This document shows positions 13,018 to 22,983 of a DNA stretch of 64,000 nucleotides, one piece after another. Positions within the stretch are counted from its first letter, which is position 1; each line of letters opens with the position of its first letter. The stretch is from IMG/VR virus record IMGVR_UViG_3300022602_003048, positions 29,538 through 93,537 of that record, one strand, 5' to 3'. The notes beneath the pieces were generated by a model that was not told where the DNA came from, ran no database searches, and saw nothing but the letters and a program-made list of their open reading frames with translations. Position numbers and translations under genes: made by a program. The stretch comes from a virus.

Positions 13018-13584
13018 TTATGTTAGTCCTATGATCATGTAGCGATCGTATTCTGTTTCTGGATCTTCTAGAGTTATAGTCCCCTCAAACATCAATTCAC
13101 GCAGTGGATAATCTCTCCGGAATTGTTCTAGGCTATCATACTGATTGACCGCACCGAGATCGTTGTTCCTACCCTGAAGAGCTACTAACGTGTTTTTCGG
13201 AATCGCATCAAACCATCCATCGTTTTTCATGTTAGTTGTGCTTGTGTTTATTATCAAGCTCTTTTTAGTCACTTGCCTGTAGTCTAGGTCGTTCGCATCT
13301 TTGAGCATGTCTACGATGCGATCGTGCAGACCTAATTTCTTGGCGAATCGCTTTCCGTCTCTTAATACTCTAGGATCTGTCTCTACGTTTATTATCTTGT
13401 TAAAATCCCAGTGCTTAGATATCAGCATGATGCTGAGATTGCCGTACCAGCTACCCAATATATAAATAACATCAAATCTATCACTTATCTTAGTGATTTC
13501 TTTTATCAACCAGAGTTTGCTAAACACTAGATCTCGTGTAAAACTACCTTCTAAAGTGTTTGGACTGACTTCATTTATCTTCAT
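13018..13584 (-). CDS. SAM-dependent methyltransferase-like protein with capsid-targeting-like N-terminus
   Basis: The 188-residue product has a Rossmann-like core: FDVIYILGSWYGNLSIML (about 37-54) resembles motif I, and IINVETDPRVL (64-74) resembles the acidic motif II after strand 2. The catalytic motif IV is unclear (LIINTSTTNM). It begins MKINEVSP, fitting M-[KNL]-[ILF]-x-E-[VLIF], shared by eight further genes up to 22951. Its ATG overlaps the previous gene by 14 bases. Substrate unknown; a degenerate methyltransferase fold is possible. Confidence 0.6.
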   Translation of the reverse strand: MKINEVSPNTLEGSFTRDLVFSKLWLIKEITKISDRFDVIYILGSWYGNLSIMLISKHWDFNKIINVETDPRVLRDGKRFAKKLGLHDRIVDMLKDANDLDYRQVTKKSLIINTSTTNMKNDGWFDAIPKNTLVALQGRNNDLGAVNQYDSLEQFRRDYPLRELMFEGTITLEDPETEYDRYMIIGLT

Positions 13585-13759
13585 CGTCCCACCGAGTTTC
13601 TATATCTTTTACTATGTCTATGTAGCGCCTGAGAGGATTATTTGATTTCAGTCTCTTATCCTTGGCCAGTGTTTCGAGACCCCGCGCACCCGGACTGACT
13701 GGGTCCTTTATCTGTTTCTTGATATCTTCGACTCCTGGAGATCCCTTGATCTTCTTCAT
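13571..13759 (-). CDS. small basic protein of unknown function
   Basis: I take the ATG at 13759 (MKKIKGSPGVEDI...), which sits one base after the stop of the LamG-like gene; the frame continues upstream to 13789 inside that gene. The 62-residue product is Lys/Asp/Arg-rich, without signal peptide or membrane segment, and looks partly disordered (KDPVSPGARGLETLAKDKRL). It overlaps the methyltransferase-like gene by 14 bases. Function unknown. Confidence 0.55.
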   Translation of the reverse strand: MKKIKGSPGVEDIKKQIKDPVSPGARGLETLAKDKRLKSNNPLRRYIDIVKDIETRWDDEDK

Positions 13760-13760
13760 A

Positions 13761-14519
13761 TTAGATTCCGTAGGTGCTCTTGACAGCATTGTAGTTGGCT
13801 GTAACCTGTGTTTGATTCAATGCTATATTATAGACACGCATCTGATAATAGGTTCCGACGCACGCATCCATTGGAGTGCTTGAGGTTCCTGCGTTTGGAT
13901 GCCTAGATCCAAAATTTAGGCCGGTAGAGGTGCTTCCTGGATTAGCATATAGCGTTTGGCTAGCAGTCTGCAAACTACCGTTGATGTATAGCTTCAAGCT
14001 AGGGGTAGCATCGACGGTAACTATTATCTGTCTTATGTTTCCAGTATTTGCCGAAATGCTGTAAGAATTTGCAGCAGCTGAACCACCTATGCTAAGCAAT
14101 GAAGAGCCGCTCCAATATGCGAGATATCCCTTAGAGGCAGTGTAGCTCTCATTGCCCCACAGCGACGACCAATAGGCTGATGGATTTAAATTTACGATAA
14201 CTTCTACAGTAAAAGGTACTACTAAATTGTATGTGGTGGCTATCATGGCCATATTAGTAATCTGAGAAGGACCTAGTATCAATCCGCCGTTATGCGCAGA
14301 AGTATATGTAGCAGATCCTGTACCTGTTTTTATTATAGTACCATTATTGCCATAACCGCTAACATCAGTCCAAGAAATTCCTGAACTAGGAGCGTTCAAA
14401 AGATTCATGACCAGCCCAGTACTAGTACCGGTCCAGGTATTACCTACCGGTCCTTTGCTAGCTGAAACAACAGTTGCAATCTTGCTGATAGCAGTAGTTC
14501 GGCCTGGCTTACGGAACAT
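13761..14519 (-). CDS. LamG/concanavalin-like domain protein, probable virion decoration or fibre
   Basis: The 252-residue product has a Gly/Ser/Thr-rich N-terminal part (1-35) and then a laminin-G/concanavalin-like jelly roll. Visible marks are SWTDVSGYGNNGTI (a D-x-SGxGNNGT start typical of LamG_3), FTVEVIVNL, a W-rich strand, LKLYINGSLQTAS and the terminal YYQMRVYNIALNQTQVTANYN. This ending (R-x-Y-N-x-AL-x-x-x-Q-V) is highly typical of LamG_3 carbohydrate-binding modules. It likely binds sugars on the virion or host surface. Confidence 0.8.
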   Translation of the reverse strand: MFRKPGRTTAISKIATVVSASKGPVGNTWTGTSTGLVMNLLNAPSSGISWTDVSGYGNNGTIIKTGTGSATYTSAHNGGLILGPSQITNMAMIATTYNLVVPFTVEVIVNLNPSAYWSSLWGNESYTASKGYLAYWSGSSLLSIGGSAAANSYSISANTGNIRQIIVTVDATPSLKLYINGSLQTASQTLYANPGSTSTGLNFGSRHPNAGTSSTPMDACVGTYYQMRVYNIALNQTQVTANYNAVKSTYGI

Positions 14520-14520
14520 A

Positions 14521-14814
14521 TCAAGCCAATTCTGTTATGCTGATATAACCACTAGTGGTAACCTGCAGGAAAGCAATGTAAGTAAAGCCTGTTCCTGTGC
14601 CTACGGCTATGAATTCTATCTGACCAGCTGGAATGATCATGCTGCTATTTGTAGCAGTAACACTAGATCCGCCTAGGGCTATATAAGTATCTGCTTGCAC
14701 AGCTACCCTTATGACGCTAGTTGATGTGCCAAATGCAGCTGAAACTTGGCTGCTGCCTGAAGTAGCAAAGTTCTGCGTAGTGCCTGGTGCGTAGGCGCCT
14801 TTTCTTAGTAACAT
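14521..14814 (-). CDS. small beta-rich structural-type protein
   Basis: This is a 97-residue Ser/Thr/Ala/Gly-rich beta protein (MLLRKGAYAPGTTQ... SVIRVAVQADTYIALGG... MIIPAGQIEFIAVGTGTGF). The SMIIPAGQIEFIAVG stretch is the pattern of small virion proteins of tailed phages that provide a beta-sandwich. It ends right at the start of the LamG gene and has a GAGG ribosome binding site. A virion accessory role is probable but not proven. Confidence 0.65.
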   Translation of the reverse strand: MLLRKGAYAPGTTQNFATSGSSQVSAAFGTSTSVIRVAVQADTYIALGGSSVTATNSSMIIPAGQIEFIAVGTGTGFTYIAFLQVTTSGYISITELA

Positions 14815-14824
14815 ATTAGTTTCC

Positions 14825-15046
14825 TCATTTCTTTATGGGACGACAGTCATTGACCATCTTGCCGCCTTTTTTCTTCAATCCTGCTTTACGATATCCAGAC
14901 CAGCAGTGCGTGTTTCCGTTATCATCGGCTTTCTCGTTGATACCTTCAGATTTGATAGAGAGAGAAGATAACCTTCCGGATAGATTCTCTCCGAGACCGT
15001 GCTTATGGTTTAGTTCTATCGCTTTTTCAAGCTCAGTTATTTTCAT
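14825..15046 (-). CDS. small protein with capsid-targeting-like N-terminus and CW-KGG-VNxC motif
   Basis: The 73-residue product begins MKITELEKAI and ends with a Cys/Lys module, HCWSGYRKAGLKKKGG then VNDCRP. The same module (CW-x-G-x-x-K-x-G-x-K-x-KGG-x-x-VN-x-C-x-P) recurs in the 15346..16572 protein at about 152-180. The two Cys could bind metal or form a disulfide. A GATAAATA late-promoter octamer ends exactly five bases before the ATG, implying a leaderless transcript. Function unknown. Confidence 0.7.
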   Translation of the reverse strand: MKITELEKAIELNHKHGLGENLSGRLSSLSIKSEGINEKADDNGNTHCWSGYRKAGLKKKGGKMVNDCRPIKK

Positions 15047-15341
15047 GCAGATATTTATCTGTTCGCCTGTGATAGGCTAGATACCATCTGACATATCTGA
15101 GTAGTTCGCCGCCATTTGATCTGATCTGTTTTTCGTTATGCTTCTTGATCTTTTTGGCTTTAGAGCTTATCTCTTTTAGGAATCTAGGATCAGAGCTACT
15201 GCGCCACTGGCTAAGGTCCATATATTGTGCTGCTTGGGATTTTAGGTTTGAATATCTAGGCCTATTCTCAACGTCTTCCAACAGATAATCCCAGTCGGAC
15301 CAATCTATCTCAGTCCAACTACTTAAAGTATCGTAGCGCAT
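15033..15341 (-). CDS. conserved phage protein, Trp-rich acidic N-terminus
   Basis: This encodes 102 residues starting at 15341 with an AAGGAG site. The N-terminal 25 residues are acidic and Trp-rich (WTEIDWSDWDYLLEDVE). The remainder is basic with SSKAKKIKKHNEKQ and a C-terminal YVRWYLAYHRRTDK. There is no known motif. It overlaps the start of the next gene and carries the late-promoter octamer for that gene in its last codons. Function unknown. Confidence 0.6.
   Translation of the reverse strand: MRYDTLSSWTEIDWSDWDYLLEDVENRPRYSNLKSQAAQYMDLSQWRSSSDPRFLKEISSKAKKIKKHNEKQIRSNGGELLRYVRWYLAYHRRTDKYLHENN
15052..15059 (-). promoter_or_regulatory. T4-late-type promoter octamer GATAAATA
   Basis: The minus-strand octamer GATAAATA matches TATAAATA at seven of eight bases. 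The ATG at 15046 is five bases downstream, which is where T4 late transcription would start, so the mRNA would be leaderless. It lies within the 3' end of the upstream gene. Confidence 0.55.
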
Positions 15342-15345
15342 TTGC

Positions 15346-16572
15346 TTACTCCTTATGGTGTTTTTTCTGTCCAGAGCGCATGTTAGCCATCCAACGGGCT
15401 AGTTGTCCTTTGCGACCCTTAGCGTGGCTTGCTTTCTCTAGCTCTGACTTGGTGGCGTGCTTTGGGATACCGTGCCTAGCACTATCTCCTGCTCGTCCTG
15501 GACCTTTGCCATCGGCAAAGTTCTCGTTAGTTGGAGCAGAAACTTTTTTCTTGTATACGTATAGTTTGTAACCTGAAGCATCATCGCTAAAAATCTTTTT
15601 CTGTTGGACTGGATCAGTTACAGCCTTAAAACCCATCTGCTCAAAGAATTTTGCTGCCCTATCATATAACTTGATTCTGCTTGGTTCGTTTGATTTTGCA
15701 CCCATGACAATTACTTCGGTTTTAGGATGTCTTGCAATAAAGTGGTTCAAGCAATAGGCAACACCATTGAATATTTTAAAAACAGTATCTCTTTCAGTAC
15801 CAGTTGCAGCATGGGTATCAGGTCTACTCTGCGTTTTATTTTCAAATGCCAATATATAATAATTTTCATTATATTCTTTAAATGTGACTTCGATTTTGGT
15901 TTTACCAACGGTGAAATCATAATCAGAACCGTAACTATCTTCATACACATCAAAGTTCTCTGGCGCTTTGTTTACGTCGATAAATTCTCCGATCACTTCT
16001 TTTTTAGCTATCGCTATAGCTGCTTGCTGTGCGGCATTAGCTGCTTCATCTATGTCTTCATTTGGTACACAGTTGTTGACACGGATACCGCCCTTGATCT
16101 TAGTGCCTTCCTTGTGCTTGCCAGTCCAGCATTTTGGATCTAAACGCTGTTTCGTCTCAGCGATATAAGCCTCAGCATATACTATGAGATCGCGCATCTC
16201 TTCGATGCTCTCGCAGTGCCACTTGCGCAGGCTCTTGTTGATCCTTGAGTTTGGATCATGTGCAGTCTTGGCGCCAGTGCGATGTTTCTTCATGCCACGC
16301 ATGCGAGCACAGAAGCTCTTGCGACGCTTGCTAGCCTTGCTGCCCTTCTTGAGCTTGCTAGGCTTTGTAGTGACTGCTGTCTGTAAATGGCTACCTGGAT
16401 GGCTGCGGCGATAGCTAGCAACGCCCTTCTTGTTGAGGCCGCCGTTCTTGTTCTTGCCTTTCTTGGTCTGCCAAGCTTCTGCTTCGTCTATCGGATCGTT
16501 GCAGCCGCAATCACATTCGGCATTACCTATGCATTCTCTGAGATTTTCTGATAAGATTTCTCTGAATTTCAT
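15346..16572 (-). CDS. multidomain late protein: basic Cys/His N-terminal domain, CW-KGG module, GNAT-like domain
   Basis: The 408-residue protein begins MKFREILSE, a capsid-targeting-like start. Residues about 30-125 form a Lys/Arg-rich domain (GGLNKKGVASYRRSHPGSHLQ... RRKSFCARMRGMKKHRTG... RKWHC) widespread in T4-type phages. Residues about 152-180 hold the CW...KGG...VNxC module. Residues about 205-345 resemble an acetyltransferase-like fold (RIKLYDRAAKFFEQMGFK is GNAT-like), paralogous to the middle of the 20289..21785 protein. The C-terminus is basic (KHATKSELEKASHAKGRKGQ). It is probably a DNA-binding virion or internal protein; activity is unproven. Confidence 0.7.
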   Translation of the reverse strand: MKFREILSENLRECIGNAECDCGCNDPIDEAEAWQTKKGKNKNGGLNKKGVASYRRSHPGSHLQTAVTTKPSKLKKGSKASKRRKSFCARMRGMKKHRTGAKTAHDPNSRINKSLRKWHCESIEEMRDLIVYAEAYIAETKQRLDPKCWTGKHKEGTKIKGGIRVNNCVPNEDIDEAANAAQQAAIAIAKKEVIGEFIDVNKAPENFDVYEDSYGSDYDFTVGKTKIEVTFKEYNENYYILAFENKTQSRPDTHAATGTERDTVFKIFNGVAYCLNHFIARHPKTEVIVMGAKSNEPSRIKLYDRAAKFFEQMGFKAVTDPVQQKKIFSDDASGYKLYVYKKKVSAPTNENFADGKGPGRAGDSARHGIPKHATKSELEKASHAKGRKGQLARWMANMRSGQKKHHKE

Positions 16573-16575
16573 AGC

Positions 16576-17055
16576 TTACCTCTTGACATTCTTCCACATC
16601 GCTGCGGCAGCTACTTTTTCGCCTTTTTCTTTAGAGCCATACTTCTTGGCAGCTTTGTCTGCTATTGCTTTGAATCCTTTACCCTTCTTGCCAATATCTT
16701 TACCTGCATGGGCTTTCTTAGCTACTGCTGATTTCTTCTTCTTGCTGAGACCCGCAGACGGCTTAGATTCTATCAGTTGATTCTCAAGATTACGATGTAG
16801 TGCTTCCATGTATTCCTCGCCTACTGGTTCGTTCGTACCGTATTGTTTTTCATACATCATGTAATCATGCACTGTGTTTAGATAATCTGCTGCTTTAGTG
16901 ATCTTGGCAGCTACCCAGCCCTCTAGATTTTCGCCTGGTTCTATCATCTTGAATAGTTCCATAGCGTTCTTTATAGCATTGTAAAGCTCACCTCTCGCCA
17001 TGCTAGCTTCATGATCGTGTGTTCCGTAATCAGTTGGTTCGTGCATATCGTGCAT
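16576..17055 (-). CDS. conserved phage protein with basic KGFKAIADKAA tail
   Basis: The 159-residue protein has an acidic/His-rich start and a helical domain (MARGELYNAIKNAMELFKMI ... WVAAKITKAADYLNTVHDYMMYE). Its Lys-rich C-terminus (SKKKKSAVAKKAHAGKDIGKKGKGFKA... is split here) ends in KVAAAAMWKNVKR. It is cotranscribed with its neighbours. The basic tail suggests nucleic acid or scaffold contact. I recognise it as a recurring type in T4-like marine phages without known function. Confidence 0.65.
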   Translation of the reverse strand: MHDMHEPTDYGTHDHEASMARGELYNAIKNAMELFKMIEPGENLEGWVAAKITKAADYLNTVHDYMMYEKQYGTNEPVGEEYMEALHRNLENQLIESKPSAGLSKKKKSAVAKKAHAGKDIGKKGKGFKAIADKAAKKYGSKEKGEKVAAAAMWKNVKR

Positions 17056-17064
17056 GGCAATATC

Positions 17065-17322
17065 CTATCTCTTTATGGATGGGCCGCCGAATAGGCTAGT
17101 GCCCTTCATATCTAATGCGTTTACAGCAGTACCCATCTTGGTCTTTGGTTGTACTGCTTTTGGGGGTTTCGGTGCTTTGGTTCCGCTCTTGCCAGGGGAT
17201 CCTGTATAGCTCTTGTTTCCTCGGGCTTTTCCTATAGCTACGTTTGGATTGACGACAGTAGCTATGCTGCCTGCTGAAGTAGCACCTGCTGAAGCATACT
17301 CAAATAACTCTTTTATCTTCAT
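17065..17322 (-). CDS. small Gly/Ser/Lys-rich protein with capsid-targeting-like N-terminus
   Basis: The 85-residue product starts MKIKELFEYASAG, followed by TSAGSIATVVNPNVAIGKAR and a disordered Lys/Pro/Gly-rich segment, ending GTSLFGGPSIKR. It looks like a short internal protein whose N-terminus could be removed after E8 (ELFE). A late octamer GATAAATA is exactly five bases upstream of the ATG, so its mRNA would be leaderless. Function unknown. Confidence 0.65.
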   Translation of the reverse strand: MKIKELFEYASAGATSAGSIATVVNPNVAIGKARGNKSYTGSPGKSGTKAPKPPKAVQPKTKMGTAVNALDMKGTSLFGGPSIKR

Positions 17323-17327
17323 AGAAA

Positions 17328-17335
17328 TATTTATC
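17328..17335 (-). promoter_or_regulatory. T4-late-type promoter octamer GATAAATA
   Basis: The minus-strand octamer is five bases before the ATG at 17322 (spacer TTTCT). It lies between a strong hairpin terminator (17354..17378) and the start of a long run of late genes, so it plausibly starts that transcript. Confidence 0.6.
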
Positions 17336-17353
17336 TCTGAATCAGATAAGAAG

Positions 17354-17378
17354 GTGCGGGAGATTGGATCTCCCGCAC
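17354..17378 (-). terminator. hairpin terminator after the secreted nuclease gene
   Basis: GTGCGGGAGAT and ATCTCCCGCAC form a perfect 11-bp stem with a three-base loop. It lies 24 bases past the nuclease stop (17402) and just before the next late promoter. The tail on the minus strand is only moderately T-rich, so termination efficiency is uncertain; it may also protect the mRNA 3' end. Confidence 0.7.
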
Positions 17379-17401
17379 TGATATATTATTAAAGATCGAT
17401 A

Positions 17402-18238
17402 TTAGTCTTCGGTGCCTGGTGCGCCCTTGCAAGCTGCCTTCTTAGCATCGGCAGTCTTCTTTAGATCCACTGGCCAAACTGCTGCGGCTGGCTTGGTCTT
17501 GTCAGTGCCTGGGGGGACAGGGAAACTGATACCTGTAGCCTGTTCGATGCTAGCGATGCTAACCAAATGTGCTGGTAGATCGATAGGTTGTGAAGCTACC
17601 TGTGGGAAAGTGAAAGCCAGCACCTGTTTGGTATTGTCGTCGATCACGATCTTGTAGAGGAAGTCTGGAACTACGACATTGTCTGCACCGATAGTCTTGC
17701 TCTTGCCCACTGTGTAGATGTTACCTGCATATACTGTGTAGTTATGACCATTTCCATAAGTCCATGCACGCACGTTGCTTTCTAGAGCTTTCCAGATACC
17801 GCGGTTTAGGTTTGGTAACTGTGGACTCATGTTTGACATTAGGAATGATTCGTATTCAACCTGTGTATCCCAGCTCATGTCACCGTCTGGAGCAAGATGT
17901 CCTTGGTCATATCCTGAACCAGCGTAATCAGATGGTTTAGAACCGTTAGCACCAAGGATAGTATCAGCTACGAATGCATTTGTGCGAGGAACACATCCGA
18001 TAGCGTGTTGCGGGGTGAGCGTATATGCTACCCAAGCTGGTATCTTAGCTGCATTGTCGTGCTGTAGGGCATACCCAGTGTGGCATTCCACAACAGTGTT
18101 TGCTTTATTTAGAACCGGCGCACCATATGGTACCTGTGCTGCGCAAGCTGTGATCGGTTGGTTGGGTTTTTGATCCCAAGCAAATACTGCACCTGTGAAT
18201 CCTAGGAACAATAATGCTGATATTACTATTTTCTTCAT
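17402..18238 (-). CDS. secreted DNA/RNA non-specific endonuclease (NUC/NucA family)
   Basis: The 278-residue precursor has a clear Sec signal peptide (MKKIVISALLFLG... cleaved after AFA at about 20). The catalytic motif is DQGHLAPDGD (111-120), a variant of DRGH, where H114 would be the general base and N145 (NLNRGIW) the Mg ligand. Several Cys (32, 52, 82) suggest disulfides, fitting a periplasmic or secreted enzyme. It could degrade host or competitor nucleic acid outside the cytoplasm. AAAGGAG precedes the ATG. A late-type palindromic promoter lies at 18253..18268. Confidence 0.88.
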   Translation of the reverse strand: MKKIVISALLFLGFTGAVFAWDQKPNQPITACAAQVPYGAPVLNKANTVVECHTGYALQHDNAAKIPAWVAYTLTPQHAIGCVPRTNAFVADTILGANGSKPSDYAGSGYDQGHLAPDGDMSWDTQVEYESFLMSNMSPQLPNLNRGIWKALESNVRAWTYGNGHNYTVYAGNIYTVGKSKTIGADNVVVPDFLYKIVIDDNTKQVLAFTFPQVASQPIDLPAHLVSIASIEQATGISFPVPPGTDKTKPAAAVWPVDLKKTADAKKAACKGAPGTED

Positions 18239-18252
18239 GCTATCTCCTTTTG

Positions 18253-18268
18253 CATAAGTATACTTATG
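18253..18268. promoter_or_regulatory. perfect 16-bp palindrome, candidate bidirectional late promoter
   Basis: CATAAGTATACTTATG equals its own reverse complement. Each half is CATAAGTA, close to the late octamer. Rightward, the ATG of the DUF454 gene (18266) is exactly five bases after the octamer, giving a leaderless mRNA. Leftward, the nuclease ATG follows after a leader with AAAGGAG. It could equally be an operator for a dimeric repressor. Confidence 0.5.
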
Positions 18269-18736
18269 ACTATTAAAGTAACAGATATTTATTCCAGAAT
18301 CAAGAATAATCTATCTCTGGAAAATGCAAAAAAAGCACTATGGTTTTCAGCTGGTATCATATTCCTAGGTATAGCTTATCTAGGGACGTTTGTTCCTGGA
18401 TTACCTTGGTCAACTCCGAGCCTGTTAGCTGCATGGTGCTTTAGCAAAAGCAGCAAGCGTTTTCACGACTACATGCTCAACCATAGACTTTTTGGACCGT
18501 TCATAAAGAACTGGAGCAGTGGGAGGGTATTTCCTAAGATCGCTAAGTGGCTCATGTTCTTGAGCATGGATGGTAGTTTAGTGATCATGTGGTTTACAAC
18601 ACATAATGTGAAACTAGTTGTAGGTATGGCAGTGTTTTTTGCTTTGATATTGATTTGGGCAAGTCGTTATCCAGGATCTAAGGAAGAAGCTGATCGCAGG
18701 ATAGCAGCCGGCGAAAAATTAGGTTGGTTTAAGTAG
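18266..18736 (+). CDS. DUF454 (YbaN-like) inner-membrane protein
   Basis: The 156-residue protein matches DUF454/YbaN: FSAGIIFLGIAYLGTFVPGLP, LLAAWCFSKSSKRFHDYMLNHRLFGPFIKNW, then RVFPKIAKW. Transmembrane segments lie at about 25-45 and two near 95-132. It is a plus-strand gene in a minus-strand region, its stop overlaps the 3' end of the HAD gene by 18 bases, and it is divergent from the secreted nuclease. YbaN function is undefined. Possible roles are envelope change or immunity to the neighbouring nuclease; both are speculative. Confidence 0.85.
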   Translation: MTIKVTDIYSRIKNNLSLENAKKALWFSAGIIFLGIAYLGTFVPGLPWSTPSLLAAWCFSKSSKRFHDYMLNHRLFGPFIKNWSSGRVFPKIAKWLMFLSMDGSLVIMWFTTHNVKLVVGMAVFFALILIWASRYPGSKEEADRRIAAGEKLGWFK

Positions 18737-19255
18737 ACTCTTCTTTAATGCCTGTATAGCATCGCCTACGTGGCTGTCTTCGTATTTTATTCCTATACCA
18801 CCAGCAGCTTCCCAAGCACGTATGTTCTTACCAAAATCGTCAATCAGTATGTTAGGAGTGCCATCTGCTTGGGTGGCATGTGCTGCCTTGTTATGTGTGA
18901 TAATCACTTCTTTTGGAGGGAACGCATGCAGATGCTTCTTGACCCACTCTCTCTTCTGTGGCTCGCTGTTTGGATCGCCTGCTAAGGGTGTGCTGCATAT
19001 GTTGTAAGCACCTGCGAATTTCTTCACTGCTCCCAATAGCTTTCCTGCTCCTTGCAAGACCGGTAAGTCGATCCAAAATGTGGGATGATCTCTCACTAGC
19101 TGTAGCTTTGCTTCTGGATTCTCTATGTCCTTGTAGTGAGATTTACCGTCTAGCGCAGCCCATGCTCCAAAGAAATCAGCTAATACTCCATCCATGTCTA
19201 CGTAGACTTCTGGTTTCTTTTCTCTGCCTTCGCTGTCTACTTCGAATATCTTCAT
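18719..19255 (-). CDS. HAD-family 5'(3')-nucleotidase-like phosphatase
   Basis: The 178-residue protein has the HAD nucleophile motif VYVDMDGVLADF (D20, D22). Further along come NICSTPLAG (Thr/Ser motif II), KVI-type IITHNKAAHA (Lys motif III) and ILIDDFGKNI (acidic motif IV). The pattern fits the 5'(3')-deoxyribonucleotidase (NT5C) family, which dephosphorylates nucleotides. It starts MKIFEVDSEG, a capsid-targeting-like N-terminus. The gene is adjacent to the metallopeptidase stop, with its ATG directly after TAG. Confidence 0.85.
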   Translation of the reverse strand: MKIFEVDSEGREKKPEVYVDMDGVLADFFGAWAALDGKSHYKDIENPEAKLQLVRDHPTFWIDLPVLQGAGKLLGAVKKFAGAYNICSTPLAGDPNSEPQKREWVKKHLHAFPPKEVIITHNKAAHATQADGTPNILIDDFGKNIRAWEAAGGIGIKYEDSHVGDAIQALKKSLLKPT

Positions 19256-20077
19256 CTATCCTACCTCTTGGTATTCGATCCACTCGTCTGGAGTGACTCC
19301 TTGTTTCTTTTTAAATGCATCATGCAGCTGCTTTGGTGTTATATCGTTATCTTTGCTTATCTTTTTCATCATGCTATCGATCTCAAAATAGGTATGATCG
19401 CGCTTGTTAGTAGCCAGCAGGTCATCTTCTAGCCTGCTGACTGCTGTGTCTAGAGATTTCTCTAGCTTCTTCTTGGCCTTCTTATCAGCTTCAAAGATAT
19501 TGCACCATCCTTTTGGATCTATGTTTCCTATGACAGCTGTGCATTGATTTGGTTTCTTCCACATAGTGCATAGTTCGCAGTAGTTGTCCTTCTTAGGATG
19601 ATCTTGGTACTTTACAGCACCCTTTGTCTTCCGAGGTTTGGCTACTTCAAACAGTTTTTTGTTGAGTTCTAAACCTTCTCTCAGCGGTTTGATATCAAAC
19701 GCTTCGGGATGTGCTGCATCAAACTTGCGCATGATGATACCTGCGACCGCATGTGCTTCGTTTTCTTGTGGACTTCCATCCTCGCCGCTACGATGATTGA
19801 TCTCGCCCTTGAGATTCTGTTTATAATGTACTAGCTCATGGGCTAGTGTGCGCATGATGTCTAGTATGTGTCTGTTTCCTATCTCTACTAATACTTCATT
19901 TGTGTTGTTAGTAAAACTACCAAAGCTGTGGTGCTTTCGGTGATGTTCACCGTCTATCGCCCATTTGATAGGAGGTAAGTGATCTAGTTCTAGCATTTCC
20001 TTACACAGTATAAGGAAATCTCTGAATAAGTCAATCAGCTGATTTGGATTTGGGCTGTTTACTTCATTTATCTTCAT
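19256..20077 (-). CDS. zinc metallopeptidase-like protein (HELVH), with Cys cluster
   Basis: The 273-residue protein holds the zincin motif HELVH (80-84) inside MRTLAHELVHYKQNLKG, with a likely third ligand in ENEAHAVAG (105-113), a SprT/WSS1-like arrangement. A second domain (about 167-200) has C-E-L-C and two more Cys (NYCELCTMWKKPNQC... WCNIF), possibly metal binding. The C-terminus is a charged helical domain. It starts MKINEVNSPN, another member of the shared N-terminal family. It may process virion or host proteins, or protein-DNA crosslinks as SprT does. Confidence 0.75.
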   Translation of the reverse strand: MKINEVNSPNPNQLIDLFRDFLILCKEMLELDHLPPIKWAIDGEHHRKHHSFGSFTNNTNEVLVEIGNRHILDIMRTLAHELVHYKQNLKGEINHRSGEDGSPQENEAHAVAGIIMRKFDAAHPEAFDIKPLREGLELNKKLFEVAKPRKTKGAVKYQDHPKKDNYCELCTMWKKPNQCTAVIGNIDPKGWCNIFEADKKAKKKLEKSLDTAVSRLEDDLLATNKRDHTYFEIDSMMKKISKDNDITPKQLHDAFKKKQGVTPDEWIEYQEVG

Positions 20078-20292
20078 TTCGTGCGCCCCCTAAACCCAAC
20101 CGGGCGTTCCTGTGTTAGATAAGGCCTGCTAAACCACAGCTGGAACCATTCTGGAGTTCCTGGACGTATGTTATTAGTCTTCATCAGATTGGCTTTTTCC
20201 ATGCCAGTGACAGAGATATTGCTACCTTCATATGGTGTCATGCCCTTGTATTCTTGTATCCCTGCCAGTTTCCTAAGTTCATCTAGATTCAT
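20074..20292 (-). CDS. small conserved phage protein (TGMEKANLMK type)
   Basis: The 72-residue product begins MNLDELRKLAGIQEY (shared N-terminal pattern) and contains SVTGMEKANLMKTNNIRPGT followed by PEWFQLWFSRPYLTQERP. I recall a similar PGTPEWFQLWF segment in other T4-type marine phages. It overlaps both neighbours by four bases, so it is coupled with the nucleotidyltransferase and the metallopeptidase. Function unknown. Confidence 0.7.
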   Translation of the reverse strand: MNLDELRKLAGIQEYKGMTPYEGSNISVTGMEKANLMKTNNIRPGTPEWFQLWFSRPYLTQERPVGFRGRTK

Positions 20293-21785
20293 AATTTGAA
20301 CGCCTTTAGATTTTTTTTGATAGTCCTTGGACCTACGTCTGCTGTGCTGTTTTGCTTTGTTACAATTCCAACTCCTGCAGCTTCTTCGTCGACATTATAA
20401 TCTGTTAGATTAATTGGTCTTATTCTAAAATGAGGTTGAAAATAATATCCTATATTTTTATTCAGATTTTTTAATACTTCTTGTTTTGCTAAGTTATATG
20501 CTTTATCTTTATCTTTAAGTTTTTTATAAAAAGTATAAAAGCTACTATTTTCTTTTATTTGCCTTTCAATAAACTTTTCGAACATAGGAAGAGTTAATCC
20601 AAATTCTTCAATATTATGTTTTTTGTAAATTGCTTCAATTGATAGTAATTGACTATCCTCAGCAACCGCAACATTTGGGAATTCATAAGAAGCATATTTC
20701 TTGTGATAATCAGGATTACTGCTACCACCGAAACGCTTTGCTATAGCGTTATATGCCCTAAGTCGACCTAAATCTTTCTTAGCAGCTTGGAATGAGATAT
20801 TCTTGATCTCAGGATGGCGTTTCATATGATAGATGACGATGGCCTTTACTGTTCCTAGGATTTTTGCTGCGTCAAAAGGATGCTCACCAGTCATCTCTTC
20901 AGAATCATCGCTGGCCCTGTAAAATGTCACATGGCCTGTGCCTGTTCTTTCCTCATAAAATATAGAGACATTGATTTTAGATCCCTTACTAGGGGTAAAA
21001 CTATAGATGGAGACATTATCGCCATCATAACCTTTATACTTGAACTTATATGCAGAATCTAATGTTTCATCTATGTCTTCTGCTGTGCCTCTGGAAGCTC
21101 TGAATATATCCTGTGTCGAAGCATAGTTACCCCATACATCGGCAGCATTGCTGCCTTTCTTTCCAGCAGCACTTAGTGGGCTCTGGTTATCACCTGCTTC
21201 TTTGACTTTCTTGCCCTTCTTGGCAGCAGCATCTGCATAAGGAAGGAGATATTCTGCTACTAGATCAAAGAATGGCTTGCCTGCTATCTTGGTTTCGCTT
21301 GAAACTCCGGCAGCATCGCTAAATGCTTTGCGATCACCCTTTATCACAGCGTCACGCAGGGCTGTAGCACTGCTCAAACGAGGAGTAGGTGTCTGTTCTA
21401 TGTGTGGGAAATCGTAATATCCGTGTGGACCTTCTTTGCCGTTATACTGCATAATGGTCTTAGTGACCCAATCTTCATCAGTTAGGCACTTGAGATTTAC
21501 TTTTCCGTGCTTTTCGTAAACCATGCTAGCCAAGGTAAGCCAACTGATTTCAGCTATTATATGTTTGGCTACGTCGGGCCATATAGCTTCCATGGCCTGT
21601 ACTTTTACTTCATAAGGTAATGGATCCTTTGGGCCAACTGTGCTCTTGTTGGTACCTACGTACCAAACGGGGCTCTTAGCAGCCAATTCCCAAGCGGCCC
21701 TATGTCCCTTGTGTGGTGGATTGAATCTGCCGAAGATTATAGCGACTTCGTTTCCAGTTGACTCAAAAAATTCTCTCAATAACAT
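20289..21785 (-). CDS. cytidylyltransferase-like nucleotidyltransferase with GNAT-like and AT-rich C-terminal domains
   Basis: Start at the ATG at 21785 (MLLREFFESTG), six bases after TAGGA; the frame extends to 21809 but would overlap the previous stop. Residues about 12-165 form an HxGH nucleotidyltransferase (AIIFGRFNPPHKGHRAAWELA ... PTPRLSSATALRDAV), like NadM/NadR or CoaD adenylyltransferases. Residues about 240-360 are paralogous to the GNAT-like domain of 15346..16572. A more AT-rich segment (about 20395-20690) encodes a further helical region, and the tail is GVGIVTKQNSTADVG. Substrate unknown; a capsid-borne enzyme is possible. Confidence 0.8.
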   Translation of the reverse strand: MLLREFFESTGNEVAIIFGRFNPPHKGHRAAWELAAKSPVWYVGTNKSTVGPKDPLPYEVKVQAMEAIWPDVAKHIIAEISWLTLASMVYEKHGKVNLKCLTDEDWVTKTIMQYNGKEGPHGYYDFPHIEQTPTPRLSSATALRDAVIKGDRKAFSDAAGVSSETKIAGKPFFDLVAEYLLPYADAAAKKGKKVKEAGDNQSPLSAAGKKGSNAADVWGNYASTQDIFRASRGTAEDIDETLDSAYKFKYKGYDGDNVSIYSFTPSKGSKINVSIFYEERTGTGHVTFYRASDDSEEMTGEHPFDAAKILGTVKAIVIYHMKRHPEIKNISFQAAKKDLGRLRAYNAIAKRFGGSSNPDYHKKYASYEFPNVAVAEDSQLLSIEAIYKKHNIEEFGLTLPMFEKFIERQIKENSSFYTFYKKLKDKDKAYNLAKQEVLKNLNKNIGYYFQPHFRIRPINLTDYNVDEEAAGVGIVTKQNSTADVGPRTIKKNLKAFKL

Positions 21786-21793
21786 ATCTATTC

Positions 21794-22951
21794 CTAGGTT
21801 GGCGTCCAACGCTTTCGCGGCACGAATTTCACGTTGCCAAACTGCTTGTTCTGGTCAGCATAACGCACACGCCCTTCGCCCTTAGTATCCCATATATCTC
21901 CCTGTGGTCCGTCCACTTGGTCGATGATATCGTCCTTCATCTTCTGTATCTCTTTGACCAGAGTGAACATGGCTTCCAGTGCTTGAGGATGCGCCACTGC
22001 TATCTCTTTTATCTTGGCCTGCTTTGGTCCGCTTACCTTGCTCTTAGAAAGCCACTCGTTGAAACTTTTTGCTCCTAGATTGTCTAGCTGTTTGGCCTTA
22101 GCAGTCTGGTTTACATAGGTATAGATTATATTCTTGAGATCACTCATTCCTGCACGGTCTTCTAGGAAACCGTTTATCTGTGCGCCGTGCTTCCTGACAT
22201 ATGCTTCTACTTGGTCTATCGACTGTGTGTTGATCTTTACTGGTTTAGTGTTGTATACTGGTCCTAGCACTATGAGATTTTGATTGCTGTTGAACTTGCT
22301 GAAATCGCTGATTGGTTTCTGATCGCTATCTGCCATACCAAATTCTGGAAAGAACGCATGCCCTACGACCATCACCTGTGCATTAGCTATCCTCTTACCT
22401 AGCTCGCTGTTAGCACGGACATGGTAACCTGTACCACTCTTGGGGTTAGGAAAGAAGTTATAGACTCCTTGTGCGTCTAACTGCGGACGCTTTAAGAACA
22501 GTCCGTCTGCGTAGACGAACCCAACAAAATCCTTAGGTGTTCCCTTGTTGAATATAGGATATAGGCTAGCGAATTCATCAGCAAACTGATCCCTAGCTTC
22601 TTTCTCTTCTGGAGTCTTTGGTGATCCGCTCTTGTTAGCGATGAAATCTTTTAGATCTTCCGGATTGTCTGTCTTAGCACCTCGGCTCCAACCGTTGTGT
22701 CCTGCCAGTATCAGAGGACCGTTTTTAACCTCACGTCCCCAATATATCTGCGGATTACCGTCCCACTTCATGCGCAGGCTACCAGCACCTTCTTGGGTGC
22801 TCATCTCTTTTATGTGTGCTAGTGCTTCGCCAGCACCTTCGGTACCATGGAAGAAGACTAAGTCTTCGAGATGATTGAACGCACGACCTAGCTTCTTAGC
22901 AGGTGCAGCTTCCTCAGCTTCTCTGATACCAAACAGTTCATTCAACAACAT
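21794..22951 (-). CDS. nucleotidyltransferase/ligase-like protein with KxDG motif
   Basis: The 385-residue protein begins MLLNELFGIREAEEA (shared N-terminal pattern with an I-R-E site). Residues 60-72 carry RMKWDGNPQIYWG, resembling the KxDG adenylation motif of ATP-dependent DNA/RNA ligases. Further strands such as FVGFVYADGLFLKRP and AQVMVVGHAF could be motifs III/IV. The C-terminal half is helical and Lys-rich. I regard it as a covalent nucleotidyltransferase-like fold by motif only; ligase activity is unproven. A late octamer lies 24 bases upstream with an AAGGAAG site. Confidence 0.65.
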   Translation of the reverse strand: MLLNELFGIREAEEAAPAKKLGRAFNHLEDLVFFHGTEGAGEALAHIKEMSTQEGAGSLRMKWDGNPQIYWGREVKNGPLILAGHNGWSRGAKTDNPEDLKDFIANKSGSPKTPEEKEARDQFADEFASLYPIFNKGTPKDFVGFVYADGLFLKRPQLDAQGVYNFFPNPKSGTGYHVRANSELGKRIANAQVMVVGHAFFPEFGMADSDQKPISDFSKFNSNQNLIVLGPVYNTKPVKINTQSIDQVEAYVRKHGAQINGFLEDRAGMSDLKNIIYTYVNQTAKAKQLDNLGAKSFNEWLSKSKVSGPKQAKIKEIAVAHPQALEAMFTLVKEIQKMKDDIIDQVDGPQGDIWDTKGEGRVRYADQNKQFGNVKFVPRKRWTPT

Positions 22952-22975: not shown

Positions 22976-22983
22976 TATTTATC
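22976..22983 (-). promoter_or_regulatory. T4-late-type promoter octamer GATAAATA
   Basis: The minus-strand octamer lies at the end of the 22982..23197 gene. The ATG at 22951 is 24 bases downstream with AAGGAAG in between, so this late transcript has a normal leader. It heads the run of genes with capsid-targeting-like starts. Confidence 0.6.

Follow-up and report, generated by a model that had tools for sequence, protein, structure and literature searches.

Why do nine neighbouring phage genes, encoding proteins with unrelated bodies, begin with nearly the same few amino acids? The question is raised by a 64,000-nucleotide stretch of viral DNA (hereafter the window, positions 29538-93537 of the 93.5 kb IMG/VR record IMGVR_UViG_3300022602_003048) from a phage that we mark as T4-like on the strength of its replication genes, a family-B DNA polymerase among them, as judged by eye. 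The nine genes, named here by their start positions, all lie on the minus strand within 13018-22951. Their shared N-terminus, or tag, is best explained as a T4-type capsid-targeting sequence (CTS) that is cleaved by the prohead protease while the cargo stays in the head, probably to be ejected; we put the probability of this at about 80%. The capsid-targeting part of this reading is strongly supported by four observations, namely the T4 spacing of the tag, its occurrence in relatives on a protein of the prohead core, a capsid cleavage junction reproduced in the 17322 family, and CTS-bearing homologues in published virion proteomes.

Shared N-terminal sequences

The nine starts reported in a preliminary description of the window were all verified: MKINEV (13584), MKITEL (15046), MKFREI (16572), MKIKEL (17322), MKIFEV (19255), MKINEV (20077), MNLDEL (20292), MLLREF (21785) and MLLNEL (22951). 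The ATG at 21785 is internal to an open reading frame that can begin at TTG 21809. The pattern M-[KNL]-[ILF]-x-E-[VLIF], picked after the data had been seen, matches nine of the 110 genes called on the whole contig, compared with a mean of 0.10 and a maximum of 2 when residues 2-16 were shuffled 200 times, and it occurs at none of 537 internal methionines. No other gene in the window fits it, as the description had correctly claimed. All nine matches are confined to 16 consecutive genes, a cluster equalled in tightness by none of 200,000 permutations. Applied unchanged to five related contigs, the pattern gave 13 matches, homologues of the window proteins among them, against approximately 0.9 from shuffles.

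Head maturation

In T4 the gp21 prohead protease cleaves after [LI]-x-E, a rule which comes from T4 and was therefore not derived from the sequences analysed here. Sites of this form in T4 are FIAE in IPIII, FLTE in gp23 and LLRE in gp24; gp24, which is trimmed in T4, begins MAKINELLRE. Mutants of the IPIII peptide assigned targeting mainly to residues 4 and 7, and processing to residues 8 and 10 (reviewed in PMC9026906). In MKTYQEFIAE these residues correspond to the pattern h-x-x-h-h-x-E (h, hydrophobic; x, any residue). MKFREILSE, MRAKEFISE and MKVHEILSE show the same spacing but are shorter by one residue after Met. The pattern is exact in 16572 of the window and in many relatives (MRAKEFISE, MKISEIISE), is nearly matched by 17322 and 21785, which lack the x before Glu, and is not matched by 13584, 19255, 20077 or 20292.

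Four larger relatives have a gene for a gp21-family protease. Their gp23 propeptide ends in L-[SA]-E, after which comes [ST]A[ST]AG[AG]TSAGNVATLNR, and their core protein at the gp67 position, between portal and gp21, begins MILRELF or MLLRELF, resembling MLLREFFE and MLLNELFG of the window.

A connection with capsid cleavage is provided by 17322 (17065-17322, minus strand), a small basic protein of 85 residues with a net charge of +11 and 50 IMG/VR relatives. It reads MKIKELFE-YASAGATSAGSIATVV; that is, a tag (17299-17322), whose start was verified and compared among relatives, runs straight into a segment (residues 9-22, YASAGATSAGSIAT, 17257-17298) that duplicates the N-terminus of mature gp23, right after the predicted cut. 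Compared with gp23 of relatives by blastp-short, this segment gave E values of 0.001-0.04, and its counterparts values down to 2e-5. In 25 of 26 distinct tag-like N-termini of the family, Glu directly precedes the capsid-like segment; two positions ahead of this Glu stands Ile in 15, Leu in 9 and Val in 1, so that 24 of the 25 read [IL]xE. Small internal-type proteins with a capsid copy right after a Glu are also encoded at G003 86473-86790 and G004 272732-272971. The gp160 protein of the cyanophage S-CREM2 (L111:28342-29235), which was detected in virions, copies a segment of its own gp23 (AAGATGFTGAAAPEGPVAGY vs AVGADGFTGAAAPGGPNAGF, E 5e-5) with no tag in front.

A separate observation concerns a further protein near the head genes, which begins MKLYEVLLED, MKVHQIVSE or MKVYETKND (G003 154705-155790, G001 71612-72790, G004 174604-175926, G008 152300-152980). 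Judging by these N-termini, it may be another tagged head protein.

Related phages

An alignment of N-termini over related phages, which had been proposed as a check, showed the tag to be kept on relatives of 22951, 21785 and 16572. The bodies of 46 relatives of 22951 are 60-72% identical and start near K-x-LGRAFNHLEDLVF. The residues before the body vary in sequence and length, yet are nearly always CTS-like (MRLRQLFKEA, MRAFEFLNEA, MRANEFLKEA, MRFLEFRTIAEA, MKIAEIITES, MRYQEIIEA, MRAKEFLFEN); in one relative (L041) no tag is visible. No relative emerged from a contig scan with the 21785 nucleotidyltransferase, probably owing to the peptide patterns used, and homologues of that enzyme were instead drawn from DUF6267 loci; their tags include MKLRQLFEG, MRLRQLFEE, MRIYNLFEG, MKIRELLEA and MLLRELFEA. 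Relatives of the 16572 domain begin MRASEFITEA, MKVSEIISES or MRAKEFINED, and one of the 15046 module begins MRANEFITE. Of the 58 distinct N-termini in the 20077 family, 33 resemble the tag (e.g. MRAREFLSEA, MKVRELLTEG), and in the 19255 family tagged (MKINQIINEG, MKLFELNQN) and untagged (MAHQKFRVYLDMDGV) copies coexist on similar bodies. Similar bodies with N-termini that change, keep the tag or lack it fit a movable tag.

Virion proteomes

Published cyanophage proteomes place tagged proteins in purified particles. The S-CREM2 report lists 52 virion proteins in its Table 3 (PMC10665884). Among them are three tagged enzymes, an S-adenosylmethionine (SAM) hydrolase (MKDFDSFLEE), a kinase (MKRFDAFLTE, annotated start GTG) and a cytidylyltransferase (MKNFSSFLTE), as well as gp13 (MKDLHSFLTE) and gp136 (MQTFSMFFSE); the virion Cas9 (gp12) has RFASFMAEA at residues 18-26, not at its start. 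Of 219 S-CREM2 genes, seven match h-x-x-h-h-x-E and five of these were detected in virions (Fisher p = 0.009), while with a stricter T4 pattern detection was 5/5 (p = 0.0007), one match (gp17) looking like chance; several versions of the pattern were tried and the p values are uncorrected.

Cytidylyltransferases related to the 21785 protein, each beginning with a CTS, were found in the virions of S-CREM2, S-SZBM1 (MRFRQFIIEA; PMC9146016) and S-SM1 (T4-GC190, MKKFSAFLNE; PMC3037559). Copies in P-SSM7, P-SSM2, S-ShM2, S-SRM01 and Melnitz are also tagged; those of S-WAM2 and Atu_ph07 are untagged. The DUF6267-like neighbour of the S-SZBM1 enzyme is untagged and does not appear in the virion list. 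The authors of the S-CREM2 (PMC10665884) and S-SCSM1 studies left undecided whether such enzymes are cargo or co-purified; the presence of the tag on cyanophage virion enzymes argues for cargo. Our literature searches found no open paper linking a CTS to these enzymes.

A second shared segment, A-x-x-LGL..G.G.[WY].., was observed in the sequences of several different cyanophage proteins, where it follows the tag: S-CREM2 gp12 (Cas9) and gp14 (kinase) (L110), and the cytidylyltransferases of S-SM1, P-SSM2 and S-SRM01 (L115, L120, L123). Two of the proteins with this segment were virion-detected.

Interpretation

Under the proposed mechanism, late proteins would be made with a short peptide, M-[KR]-h-x-[EQ]-h-h-x-E, which would dock them onto the prohead core. 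A gp21-type prohead protease would remove the peptide after [LI]-x-E, and the freed cargo (the cytidylyltransferase-like enzyme, the DUF6267 and DUF6321 proteins, the zincin-like protein and small basic proteins) would remain in the head with the DNA and probably be expelled into the cell infected next. For six families packaging is well supported, and for 13584 and 19255 it is weakly indicated; in the window phage itself, packaging and cleavage of the nine proteins are predicted. The T4 internal proteins and Alt are known to be ejected into the host (PMC9026906), and by analogy the cargo of the window phage may be injected and may play a role in host takeover. The T4-like targeting originally suggested for all nine proteins thus stands on the motif, its clustering, the T4 spacing, the capsid junction and the virion-detected homologues, while the fit is weak for 13584 and 19255, and 20292 carries a different motif.

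Several results weigh against this interpretation. The window form of the tag is one residue shorter than the T4 form, and just five of the nine proteins contain a second [LI]xE site, 21785 having FFE. Relatives of 13584 and 19255 often lack a tag. Neither a gp21-family prohead protease nor gp23 is present on the contig fragment, and no gp20-gp23 block was seen there. In S-SZBM1, two of three clearly tagged proteins went undetected in virions. The literal window pattern, tried as a predictor of mass spectrometric detection in S-CREM2, was rejected (1/2 matches detected, p = 0.42); for that data set, only T4-spaced patterns predict.

It is possible, though on the whole doubtful, that the tag does target the prohead core and that the proteins are structural or DNA-condensing internal head proteins which serve assembly, as opposed to enzymes that are injected and act on the host. 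Small size and basic character (net charge +6 to +26) are seen in several of them, which also narrows the earlier proposal of an enzyme cargo; the 17322 protein copies the capsid N-terminus, and the core protein at the gp67 position carries the same tag. On the other hand, several of the nine bear enzyme-type domains unrelated to assembly, and the protein set differs between relatives, as expected for host-directed cargo. Docking to another structure or compartment (the tail, a replication compartment or a partner protein) is improbable: packaging in the window phage group is predicted from sequence, but the same tag is found on a head-core protein, on the cleaved T4 gp24 and on the T4 internal proteins, and in the 17322 family it is joined to the capsid cleavage junction. 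Chance or translation-initiation bias (Met-Lys followed by hydrophobic residues) was already disfavoured and is the least credible explanation, since, although the pattern is short and post hoc and Lys is frequent after Met, the matches are clustered and in 90-fold excess over shuffles, none occurs at internal Met, and relatives preserve Glu5, the hydrophobic positions and [LI]xE.

Individual proteins

The 22951 gene (21794-22951, minus strand, as are all those below) encodes a DUF6267 protein of 385 residues (Pfam, E 3.7e-15) with the tag MLLNELFGIRE (22919-22951), CTS-like in relatives. Confidence in its AlphaFold model is high apart from residues 1-23, which are modelled as disordered. K-W-D-G is invariant in the family, and DNA-ligase adenylation domains surface only at E values of about 2-4; neither the AlphaFold model with Foldseek nor a PDB profile search gave a significant match to a ligase adenylation fold, and the "KxDG ligase-like" label was not confirmed. 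The 21785 protein (20289-21785, 498 residues; tag MLLREFFE at 21762-21785, relatives also tagged) is cytidylyltransferase/NMNAT-like, its description as a nucleotidyltransferase being backed by PHROGs (cytidyltransferase, E 4.3e-13).

The 72-residue protein encoded at 20074-20292 has 12 distinct relatives and the N-terminus MNLDELRKLAGIQE (20251-20292). The conserved N-terminal motif of its family, [DE]L+KLAGIxE, is probably not the same tag as that of the others. In the window protein it reads DELRKLAGI, resembling the conserved C-terminus DIRRLAGL of the gp22 scaffold (gp22 in G001, G003, G004 and G008). Across six contigs surveyed, motifs of this type were found in gp22 and the 20292 family, plus one looser match; from the sequence likeness, a second core-binding motif is possible.

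The 20077 protein (19256-20077, 273 residues; tag MKINEV at 20060-20077) has an invariant HELVH. The best matches of its model were zincins (Wss1, selecase, IrrE) at non-significant E values of 0.08-0.1 (Wss1: probability 0.98, E 0.08). The model thus suggests a zinc-peptidase fold, and of the proposed "HELVH peptidase" the invariant motif is firm while the structural matches fall short of significance. The predicted haloacid dehalogenase (HAD) phosphatase, 19255 (18719-19255, 178 residues), does contain a HAD domain of the NT5C deoxyribonucleotidase-like family (Pfam, E 1.5e-12); its possible tag, MKIFEV, is at 19238-19255.

The 16572 protein (15346-16572, 408 residues) is strongly basic, with DUF6321 (Pfam, E 2.7e-16) and DUF6934 (E 2.6e-6) domains, and its tag, MKFREILSE (16546-16572), is a strict pattern match and the window's clearest fit to T4 h-x-x-h-h-x-E. 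It has matches in 282 phage records, those listed covering about one quarter of the query (the DUF6321 region). The small basic 15046 protein (14825-15046, 73 residues; tag MKITEL at 15029-15046) carries a CWSGYR..KKGGKMVNDCRP module (phrog_4359, E 1.6e-9). The 13584 protein (13018-13584, 188 residues) had no match in Pfam, and the methyltransferase-like body claimed among the nine was not confirmed. The possible tag of 13584 is MKINEV (13567-13584); its relatives begin MKIKEVNPNTSKGS, MIVDEFTQLAESS and MILESSPLTL.

Transcription and gene organization

Of the 110 contig genes, 15 have the sequence ATAAATA in the 60 bases upstream, as against approximately none expected from coding windows. The claim that late-type promoters precede several of the tagged genes was borne out for the NATAAATA form, ATAAATA occurring on the minus strand at 15052-15058 (upstream of 15046), 17328-17334 (17322) and 22976-22982 (22951); the TATAAATA form of the late promoter was not enriched. 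In two relatives ATAAATA is found at -12/-13 of the gp67-position gene.

Genes of the cluster form tightly packed runs with intergenic gaps of -18 to +79 bases. The tagged run is interrupted by a divergent DUF454 gene (18266-18736, plus strand) and by an Endonuclease_NS (DNA/RNA non-specific endonuclease) gene (17402-18238), whose product has a signal-peptide-like N-terminus. The window had no DNA-level match in the phage collection, nor was any match found there for the 17322 protein; no cultured relative of the window phage group was found, and the defence-system families searched gave no match. Outside the window, contig positions 1-22300 (L002 1-20000 and L003) hold a long run of apparent radical-SAM, 2-oxoglutarate-Fe(II) oxygenase-like and other small-molecule enzymes, with one AMP-ligase-like gene among them; these assignments come solely from inspecting the translations by eye.

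Comparison with known systems and significance

The CTS of T4 (IPI, IPII, IPIII, Alt and the gp24 propeptide) is a short N-terminal h-x-x-h-h-x-E ending in a prohead-protease site. As in T4, where the CTS covers about 10-19 residues, the window tags are N-terminal and borne by unrelated bodies. They differ in being one residue shorter ahead of the first hydrophobic position, in occurring on nine clustered genes, and in their bodies (nucleotidyltransferase, nucleotidase, zincin-like, DUF6267, DUF6321), with one family joined to a duplicate of the capsid N-terminus. With S-CREM2, S-SZBM1 and S-SM1 the window phage shares a tagged cytidylyltransferase related to one in purified virions, whereas the cyanophage tags have T4 spacing and the rest of the cargo differs. 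In the giant phages SPN3US and phiKZ many different ejection proteins are loaded into the head and trimmed by a prohead protease, as proposed for the window phage, but several of their propeptides exceed 100 residues (PMC5694885), compared with approximately 8-11 in the window phage.

With the odds evenly poised, we propose that aquatic T4-like phages load a swappable, genome-specific set of effectors into the head by one N-terminal zip code, and that a family of small internal proteins binds the shell or core through a replica of the mature capsid N-terminus placed right behind the cleavage site. The work names candidate injected effectors, as well as an internal protein family in which the capsid cleavage junction is reproduced, and makes a classic T4 signal a genome-readable predictor of head-borne phage proteins. 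The tag suggests how enzymes that recur in cyanophage particles could get there; the authors of those reports could not distinguish their packaging from contamination. If the proposal is true, one zip code would explain the SAM hydrolase, kinase, cytidylyltransferase and possibly Cas9 of cyanophage virions.

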